From a virus: a stretch of 32,559 nt of DNA. Made by a program: the position numbers and the translations under genes. Shown piece by piece: positions 208-5,900 of the stretch; the first letter of the stretch is position 1; each line of letters begins with the position of its first letter. Under the pieces are notes generated by a model. The model did no database searches and had not been told where the DNA came from. It saw nothing but the letters and a program-made list of their open reading frames with translations. The DNA lies in IMG/VR virus record IMGVR_UViG_3300042865_000344, positions 1-32,559 of that record; one strand, written 5' to 3'.

Positions 208-844
208 AGTATTTTTTTACGATTAAGCGTCTGTAAATAAATTCGATTGATGCTGTGTCTGTGGGTTGAATGTCTTTAAAATGATCAGCTTTTAACTTCA
301 TAAATCTTTTGTATTCTCTAAAATCTCCGCGCTCCATTGCCTCGTCGTAAAGTTCACTTTGCCGAATCTTAGTCGCTTTGCCGTACATCTTACTCTTTTC
401 GTCGTCGCTTAATTCGACAAGGTTAAACTCCATGATCCAGTCGTAAAGATAAGGAGGAAGTAGCGAAGTTCGAAGGGTTGAATTACGATAAGATTCTATT
501 TCCTGCAATTTTTCCTCTTTGCTGATCGTGTAAGGAAGTTGAACAGGTATCGGATCGGGTTCGTCCTCAAAGGCTTGATTGACAAATTTTCGATATCCTT
601 GCATGATCTTTTCAAAGTAAGGGATTGAAAACTGGTCGTAAGGGTTAACGCTGTCGATATCTAGCTTACCCTTTACAGCTAATTTAAAAGCGACCTGAAT
701 TTCCACGCCTGCATACTTTGAATAATTTTCGCGCAGGTATTCGAGTAAAACCTTAAGCTCAAAGTTTGATGGTTGGTGTTGCTTACGAAGTCCGATCAGG
801 ATATAAATTTTCATAAGCATTTCATTCAATTCAAGGTCGCTCAA
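197..844 (-). CDS. Helicase-loader / replisome-organiser-like protein
   Basis: Probable replication accessory protein that would bring the host helicase to the phage origin. The helical core runs from LSDLELNEML through an AF-L-V-GKL stretch to YFEKIMQGYRKF. This resembles phage replication proteins that follow a DUF1376-type protein in Bacteroidota phages. The call rests on that resemblance and on gene order; no Walker motif is visible, so it is not a DnaC-type ATPase. Start is uncertain. An ATG at 1015 would overlap the previous gene by 185 bases and add a low-complexity Ser/Thr/Gln N-terminus that I doubt is translated. TTG at 844 or ATG at 820 fit the core better, and I chose TTG. The stop overlaps the next start by 11 bases. 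Confidence 0.6.
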   Translation of the reverse strand: MSDLELNEMLMKIYILIGLRKQHQPSNFELKVLLEYLRENYSKYAGVEIQVAFKLAVKGKLDIDSVNPYDQFSIPYFEKIMQGYRKFVNQAFEDEPDPIPVQLPYTISKEEKLQEIESYRNSTLRTSLLPPYLYDWIMEFNLVELSDDEKSKMYGKATKIRQSELYDEAMERGDFREYKRFMKLKADHFKDIQPTDTASIEFIYRRLIVKKYYGK

Positions 845-1541
845 TTCTCCGAGTTTTCTTTTCTTCTTCAGTTCCGAAATTTTCGACCAAGTTGTTCCAG
901 TATTCGACACGATCAGCGTCGCGGTCGTTTGATTCTGATTTGATGGCAAAGAATCCTTTCCAGCCGTTTGCGATAGATTGCTCGATAATTTTTGAAGCTG
1001 TGTGTTCATTTCCATTTGATAAGGTTTGAAGTTGGTTTAAGGAAGTTTGTTCTGTTGAGCCTGATTTAAAAGTAAAATTAAACTGATCTTTTTTATATTT
1101 TTTCCATTCGCTCCATTTTTCTTTAAATAATTCTGAAAAATTTTGAAAATCAATACCTTTTTTATTATTAGTTTCAGTTATAGTTTCAGTTTCAGTTTCA
1201 GTTTCCATATGATTAACATATGATTTTGATATCTTTTTCACTTGTTCAGTTTTCTTACCTTTTCTATTATTAGAACGACTTTCGCTGAATCCTTTTCGCC
1301 TTTCTATTTCCTTATCCAATCTTTGATTGAAAAATTTATTTTCAGAATCCTGCGCGAATTTTTGCATTATTTCAACGTCATATGTTTTACATATGAATAA
1401 CACTTGTTTTTCGGTTAAGTGTCCGTGTTGGTGTTGTGCGATTAATAACCTGAGATATTTTCCCACTTGCTCGTCGCTCATAAATTTAGTATCAGCGTCG
1501 AAGTCATTTGAATAAAAAAGGAAAGCTGGATCTTTTGCCAT
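831..1541 (-). CDS. DUF1376-like phage replication initiation protein
   Basis: Likely origin-binding or primosome protein of the phage. The N-terminus MAKDPAFLFYSNDF with MSDEQVGKYLRLL following is typical of DUF1376-type replication proteins. The C-terminal part, with LNQLQTLSNGNE and IIEQSIANGWKGFF, is the usual tail of such proteins and probably contacts a helicase loader. A low-complexity linker METETETETITET (about residues 112-124) separates the two parts and is encoded by tandem ACTGAA units. ATG at 1541 is chosen over an upstream in-frame TTG at 1562 because the TTG lies inside a hairpin and adds residues outside the conserved start. The gene has its own promoter at 1638-1667 and a structured leader. 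The following gene encodes the presumed helicase loader. Confidence 0.8.
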   Translation of the reverse strand: MAKDPAFLFYSNDFDADTKFMSDEQVGKYLRLLIAQHQHGHLTEKQVLFICKTYDVEIMQKFAQDSENKFFNQRLDKEIERRKGFSESRSNNRKGKKTEQVKKISKSYVNHMETETETETITETNNKKGIDFQNFSELFKEKWSEWKKYKKDQFNFTFKSGSTEQTSLNQLQTLSNGNEHTASKIIEQSIANGWKGFFAIKSESNDRDADRVEYWNNLVENFGTEEEKKTRRIERP

Positions 1542-1547
1542 AGAATT

Positions 1548-1601
1548 AAAAAAGCCCTTCAAGAATTAAGGAGGTCGCACTCTCCAAAATTCTATCAGGG
1601 C
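1548..1601 (-). promoter_or_regulatory. 48-base leader hairpin plus T6 tract directly before the replication gene
   Basis: On the minus strand the leader folds into a symmetric imperfect hairpin (1601 to 1554): GCCCT with AGGGC, a 3x3 internal loop, AGAATT with AATTCT, a 2x2 internal loop, GGAG with CTCC, and the 8-base loop AGTGCGAC. Six T follow (1553-1548), then AATTCT and the ATG at 1541. The loop heptamer GTGCGAC is complementary to GTCGCAC at 1628-1622, a few bases from the predicted transcript start, so a 7-bp loop-leader pairing is possible. This looks like an attenuator or pseudoknot regulator. An operator or origin inverted repeat is the alternative reading. Confidence 0.6.
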
Positions 1602-1637
1602 AATAAGTTTAATAAATAGCGGTGCGACTCGCTTTTA

Positions 1638-1667
1638 CAAAGATACTAAAACTTAATGTTATTGCAA
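1638..1667 (-). promoter_or_regulatory. Bacteroidota-type promoter for the replication genes
   Basis: Minus strand: TTG at 1667-1665, 19 bases, then TATCTTTG at 1645-1638, matching the TTTG / TAnnTTTG consensus of the Bacteroidota primary sigma factor. It overlaps the last codons of the upstream DnaA-like gene, and the predicted start near 1633 leaves a leader of about 90 bases that contains the hairpin at 1554-1601. Confidence 0.65.
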
Positions 1668-5781: not shown

Positions 5782-5866
5782 TTTTTTTTAAACTTTTTTT
5801 TAAAATAATTTTCATTCAGCAGTTAATCTATTGAAAAACAATAAGTTACGGACAAAAATAATTTTA

Positions 5867-5900
5867 TAAAAAAACCCCTAACGTAGAAACGTCAGGGGGT
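5867..5900 (-). terminator. Rho-independent terminator of the late/lysis operon
   Basis: On the minus strand the hairpin runs 5900 to 5874: ACCCC, a bulged base, CTGACGT, loop TTCT, then ACGTTAGGGGT, with one mismatch. Seven T follow. It lies just downstream of the last late gene (stop at 5928) and just upstream of early promoter 1, so it separates late from early transcription. Confidence 0.85.

Follow-up and report, generated by a model that had tools for sequence, protein, structure and literature searches.

What kind of element lies between the promoter and the start codon of a phage replication gene, and how might it act on that gene? The question arises from the window analysed here, a 32,559-base viral record; its genes, nearly all on the minus strand, include those for ERF, portal, lysozyme, terminase and tail proteins. 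The gene at issue (831–1541, minus strand) encodes a protein of 236 aa with a DUF1376-like N-terminus, an O-like or primosomal factor judging from its matches to PHROG_678 'replication initiation O-like' (3.8e-8), phrog_6451 'primosomal' (4.1e-6) and DUF1376 (5e-4, under the Pfam cut-off). The next ORF on the same strand (197–1015, 272 aa) belongs to PHROG 26016, of unknown function, and overlaps the replication gene by 185 bases in another frame. On the other side, directly 5' of the leader, a minus-strand gene (1646–2008) encodes a protein of 120 aa that contains the DNA-binding C-terminal domain of DnaA (Pfam Bac_DnaA_C, 4.6e-14), and its stop codon is immediately followed by the -7 box of the leader.

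A preliminary description of this DNA had listed a promoter (1638–1667), a 48-base hairpin (1554–1601), a T6 tract (1548–1553) and the ATG at 1541, and had read the interval as the leader RNA of the replication gene. All of these features are present, on the minus strand to which every coordinate below refers, and the element does sit between a promoter and a start codon of the same orientation. The -7 box TATCTTTG (1638–1645) matches TAnnTTTG, the -7 promoter consensus of Bacteroidota (PMC7366714), and the weak motif TTG (1665–1667), 19 nt upstream of the box, may represent a -33 element. Transcription is predicted to start at about 1634–1630, just after the box, and the host phylum would be Bacteroidota, judging from the promoter consensus together with relatives in Bacteroidota genomes. 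The predicted transcript opens with a 5'-terminal hairpin, HP1 (1618–1633), of the form AGCG-(A GTCGCAC)-CGCT, in which the stem AGCG/CGCT (1633–1630/1621–1618 in the MFE fold) closes a loop of 8 nt, A plus GTCGCAC; similar hairpins enclose the equivalent loop segment, k1 (1622–1628), in relatives. An A/T-rich linker (1602–1617) connects HP1 to HP2 (1554–1601), a three-part, terminator-like hairpin that reads GCCCT-gat-AGAATT-tt-GGAG-(A GTGCGAC)-CTCC-tt-AATTCT-tga-AGGGC and carries the second loop segment, k2 (GTGCGAC, 1574–1580), at its apex. The T6 tract directly 3' of HP2 resembles that of an intrinsic terminator. It is followed by a copy of AATTCT (1542–1547) and the ATG (1539–1541), so that HP2 ends 12 nt, and U6 only 6 nt, upstream of the AUG.

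Folding gives both hairpins. HP2 alone reaches -21.2 kcal/mol (z -5.2, with none of 200 shuffles as good), and the leader as a whole (1633–1548) folds into two hairpins at -26.5 (z -3.8). With a GC-rich base followed by a U-run, HP2 and the T6 tract have the feature of an intrinsic terminator directly before the start codon, in agreement with the preliminary description; a simple terminator scan passed over HP2 on account of the interruptions in its stem. Elsewhere in the window the strongest terminator-like structures are two hairpins of about -25 kcal/mol, each followed by a T-run, at 5838–5874 (minus strand).

The apical loops of HP1 (A plus GUCGCAC) and HP2 (A plus GUGCGAC) are both 8 nt long and exactly complementary over 7 nt, and the model allows a possible 7-bp kissing helix between them. 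The preliminary description had correctly noticed that the loop heptamer GTGCGAC (1580–1574) is the exact complement of GTCGCAC (1628–1622); it had missed that the partner, k1, is itself enclosed by a stem, which makes the contact one of loop with loop and not of a loop with a single-stranded 5' end. On the leader strand of the 32.6-kb window neither heptamer has a second copy, and no third site complementary to k1 or k2 is found. A 7-nt match within the window sequence considered alone is weak (p about 0.013), and the weight of the evidence therefore has to come from relatives.

Relatives of the replication protein were taken from viral and genome collections and their upstream leaders compared. 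Many are directly preceded by the same leader design written in different letters. Whether such pairs exceed chance was addressed by three tests in which the hairpin criterion was blind to the complement. Among 33 non-redundant hairpin-bearing leaders a loop complement of at least 7 nt was found upstream in 70%, as against 6% when leaders were swapped between loci; in an enlarged set of 58 loci the figures were 52% and 7%, and 63 control loci without the hairpin showed no excess (9.5% versus 11%). The strictest blind test demanded an exact 7-mer, an apical loop of 6–12 nt and the window's k1–k2 spacing. Of 81 non-redundant loci 19 passed, whereas shuffled sequences gave 0.68 on average (maximum 4 in 300 runs) and swapped ones 1.17 (maximum 5). 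These shuffled and swapped controls rule out a chance match. A GU-tolerant, region-wide test gave 34 observed against 10.7 expected, although it is permissive and noisy and the exact-loop tests are cleaner. The design is not universal: in about 41–48% of the hairpin-class loci these tests reveal no clear k1:k2 pair, loci in which the gene lies inside an operon are without the leader element, and in the five named or deposited phage records examined (MT837034, X14, Scipio, psageK9 and FGH) the gene is present and the kissing leader absent.

Three sets of leaders were alignable enough for pair counts, and in all of them the loop–leader pair and the stems covary, the outcome of a comparison that the preliminary description had proposed. 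In A3, the ATGAAAGAC set of 19 leaders, 100% of the cells are paired and both sides have changed in 13 of 24 pairs, the k1:k2 helix contributing 6 of its 9; the k1:k2 variants include GCAACTCAG/CTGGGTTGC, GCGTACCCT/AGGGTACGC, GACTATCCG/CGGATAGTC and GCTCGTTCG/CGGACGAGC. The set nearest to the window's class, A6 (6 leaders), is 95% paired, with 16 of 31 pairs double-changed and k1:k2 100% paired, and the proteobacterial set A4 (5 leaders) is 98% paired, with 13 of 39 pairs double-changed. In each of the three sets all 500 shuffles fell short of the real covariation score; shuffles do not remove relatedness, yet slid structures preserve it and still score much less. Some covarying pairs are wobbles that read U-G on the sense strand, and this argues for an RNA of that strand and not for duplex DNA. 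On this comparative evidence the structured RNA is real, its pairing being kept in dozens of distantly related phages though the letters change completely. Since complementarity persists through free changes of letter, every phage has a lock and key of its own, and the pairing is directly testable by compensatory mutation.

The variability of the pairing segments is itself striking. Within A3 the diversity of k1 and k2 is 0.39–0.40 compared with 0.04–0.11 in the linkers, the P1 stem and the tail, about four times that of the rest of the leader, a contrast that a conserved mini-ORF constraining the remainder of the A3 leader could exaggerate; the apical hairpin is as variable as k1 and k2 (0.41). 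The mini-ORF, of 13 codons (MKN(I/F)LNPxxTALP), is conserved in the L250–L280 group (e.g. L250:1390-1500), where it follows k1 and overlaps the 5' arm of HP2. Its frame is kept by a paired deletion and insertion, a pattern which suggests that this subgroup translates it as a leader peptide.

The kissing leaders come in two classes. In class I, to which the window belongs together with L036, L037, L038, L057, L059, L067 and others, k1 measures 6–8 nt and forms the loop of a hairpin at the 5' end, k2 the loop at the apex of HP2. Class II leaders (L004, L047, L051, L088, L120, the L250 group and others) have a longer k1 of about 8–13 nt that lies near the predicted 5' end without a 5' hairpin and pairs into HP2. 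Measured over 21 class I leaders, k1 and k2 lie 43.3 +/- 3.3 nt apart, and the linker (sd 7.0) and the HP2 arm (sd 6.2) are about twice as variable. The statistic is descriptive because the leaders were picked by eye after the pairs had been seen and HP2 was delimited from MFE folds, which also means that the anticorrelation of linker and arm is partly built in. A near-constant spacing despite a variable linker and arm fits pairing within one molecule. The promoter and the U-tract accompany the element: a TAnnTTTG box lies upstream of 65% of the kissing-class loci versus 6% of the no-hairpin loci, and a T-run of at least 5 precedes the ATG in 62% versus 11%. Nearly all class I leaders have T4–T9 behind HP2; the ATGAAAGAC subgroup has only a U-rich tract there (TATTTAGTTTT), and L004 and L120 are without a clear U-run.

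The same two hairpins are found before homologous genes in proteobacterial phages with sigma-70-like promoters, some with GGAG before the start codon. Their k1/k2 pairs are GGACTAG/CTAGTCC, GGACAAG/CTTGTCC, GAATCAG/CTGATTC and GTACCAG/CTGGTAC, at a spacing of 45–48 nt. Directly before other homologous replication genes, in the position that the kissing hairpins occupy, are matches to the int-alpA RNA (RF02996), two of them over the gathering score of 35.8 (L009, 39.2 bits; L347, 37.4 bits) and four just below it (L359, L362, L367 and L342, the last with 32.5 bits, E 0.004). The proteins encoded by L341, which has the kissing leader, and L342, with its sub-threshold int-alpA match, are 81% identical. 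Judged from these sequences, the two types of RNA may be interchangeable before the same gene, and their apparent interchangeability hints at a similar job. The int-alpA RNA resembles the C4 antisense RNA. A position before replication genes (L342:910-985, L347:904-980) is unexpected for an RNA named after integrase–alpA loci, and no tyrosine integrase is found in the L342, L347, L359, L362 or L367 records.

The leader RNA is probably regulatory and throttles phage replication. On balance we favour the explanation that it is a cis-folding attenuator in the 5' leader of the replication-gene mRNA. Transcription would start just past the TAnnTTTG box and the transcript would form HP1 at once; after the short A/U-rich linker HP2 would fold, and the two 8-nt apical loops would pair over 7 bp to give a compact kissing-loop fold. 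HP2, with its GC-rich base, and U6 would constitute the attenuator proper, so that much of the transcription would end at U6 and release leader molecules some 85 nt long. HP2 would also crowd the start codon, and the replication protein would be made from read-through molecules only. The loop–loop helix would most likely stabilise HP2 and the 5' end and in this manner set the strength of the brake. The computation supports the architecture, its place between promoter and start codon, the covariation, the near-constant spacing and the U-tracts; from these we infer the transcription start, the termination, the effect on translation and the direction of regulation. Against an attenuator it counts that a loop contact which stabilises a stem provides no switch of its own, that the terminator scan passes over HP2, that the U-run is less clear-cut or missing in some leaders, and that so many hairpin-class loci have no clear k1:k2 pair.

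By analogy, the leader would work like the attenuators of phage and plasmid replication genes. As in intrinsic-terminator attenuators such as the Gifsy-1 IsrK leader, which ends as an sRNA and acts both in cis and in trans (PMC4825925), a terminator-like hairpin closes the leader before the gene, and a short as well as a read-through RNA would be expected. Unlike in these systems, the loop of the terminator in the window would be tied to a 5' hairpin by the 7-bp kissing helix, and U6 ends so close to the AUG.

The main rival to a cis attenuator is a trans-acting immunity or copy-number RNA in the manner of P4 CI or P1 C4, which we regard as unlikely but well worth taking seriously. The terminated leader would be a stable sRNA whose k segments act as specificity determinants, k1 or k2 pairing with its counterpart on sibling transcripts of its own or a co-infecting phage and causing their premature termination. 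Precedents exist in Gifsy-1 IsrK and in the P4 CI RNA, which stops the replication genes by premature termination (PMC4825925). The diversity of k1 and k2 (about 0.39) in leaders that are otherwise near-identical resembles that of incompatibility loops, and it would be best explained by a role of the letters in contacts from one molecule to another too, such as they have in plasmid incompatibility RNAs and the P4 CI RNA; in RNAI of IncK plasmids the incompatibility loops are diverse, and in the I-complex the loop letters set the specificity (PMC10724649). The alternation of kissing hairpins and int-alpA matches at the same place among proteobacterial homologues, seen even within the pair of 81% identity (where the match is below gathering), fits such an RNA as well. 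Against it, the near-constant k1–k2 spacing indicates pairing in cis, and the window offers no third complementary site. A tyrosine integrase occurs in just 3 of 32 leader-bearing records, and in 18 records there were no HTH_3 match over the cut-off and no resolvase; their rarity makes lysogenic immunity doubtful, an argument that is only suggestive as the records may be fragments.

The P4 CI, P1/P7 C4 and int-alpA RNAs are, like the window's, phage leader RNAs that precede replication or antirepressor genes and exert control via short complementary segments. Unlike in these, both complementary segments in the window lie within one short leader as hairpin loops at a fixed spacing, and there is neither a conserved CUAG/CGAAAAG core nor an Rfam match. 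In P4 CI immunity a single segment can pair with two sites that flank it (seqA and seqC), unlike in the window, whose heptamers are each found once on the leader strand. The repZ leader of the IncI/IncB (I-complex) plasmids, with its stem-loop I, RNAI and pseudoknot, likewise uses loop pairing in the mRNA leader of a replication initiator, but its antisense RNA comes from the opposite strand and it includes a leader peptide, which the window is without. A search of the opposite strand from -100 to +80 at 34 kissing loci found no TAnnTTTG box, the only box type searched, and we reject an opposite-strand antisense RNA. Attenuation by a leader peptide is likewise rejected: the conserved uORF is limited to the ATGAAAGAC subgroup of class II, several class I leaders have no uORF, and the window leader holds no ATG-initiated one. 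With features of each tested and found to differ, the leader is not shown to belong to the C4, P4 CI or I-complex families.

A bolder form of trans action, which we put forward tentatively and think rather doubtful, is a phage RNA system of self and non-self recognition. The hypervariable, co-diversifying loop pair would be a determinant akin to those of incompatibility, and the terminated leader RNA would prevent replication in those phages alone whose loop letters are identical to its own. If true, this would combine copy-number control with superinfection exclusion without a protein repressor, and the leader RNA would possibly determine which phages replicate together in one cell.

A platform for protein binding appears improbable. 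Here the replication protein would bind the leader and control its own synthesis, or a phage RNA-binding protein would bind it, and the position of the element before the replication gene as well as its constant geometry with variable letters, which suits the recognition of shape, would agree with this; our analysis identified no protein partner or conserved unpaired motif. The mRNA of T4 gene 32 has a 5' pseudoknot through which the protein exerts autogenous control. The window's leader is likewise a folded 5' end of the mRNA of a phage replication gene, but it forms kissing hairpins, not an H-type pseudoknot, and gives no sign of autogenous binding.

We consider it quite improbable that the leader switches between mutually exclusive structures, as the preliminary description had proposed, with k1:k2 pairing keeping HP2 open and the leader choosing between terminator and anti-terminator. 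It is true that k1, being transcribed earlier, could seize k2 while the 3' arm of HP2 is still missing, and that the class II pair, at 9–13 nt or longer, would strain HP2. In class I, the window included, both apical loops measure 8 nt and k1 sits in its own hairpin at a near-constant distance from k2, so that both stems and the 7-bp helix can coexist. The AATTCT copy before the ATG, which might have offered an alternative pairing, is present in the window but not conserved (the closest relative, L036, has AGATC in the arm and ATTCT before the ATG), and no conserved antiterminator pairing was found. A DNA element, the inverted repeat near the replication gene serving as origin or operator (the alternative in the preliminary description), is barely credible given loop–loop pairs that covary over a distance of about 43 nt and include U-G wobbles on the sense strand, their location between a same-orientation promoter and the start codon, and the loci with the gene inside an operon that do without the element.

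The kissing leader represents a class of leader RNA that has apparently not been described. No Rfam family reaches its gathering score in the window, what appears at E up to 10 being unrelated families at chance level, and no description of such a leader was found in the open literature. It is a widespread class of structured leaders in phages, placed on the gene that starts DNA replication, mostly behind Bacteroidota-type promoters and also in proteobacterial phages. Other large hairpins, unlike the kissing leader, lie before related replication genes (L012 upstream of 3001, L017 upstream of 2560 and L022 upstream of 2467), and this family of replication genes may attract several kinds of leader RNA.
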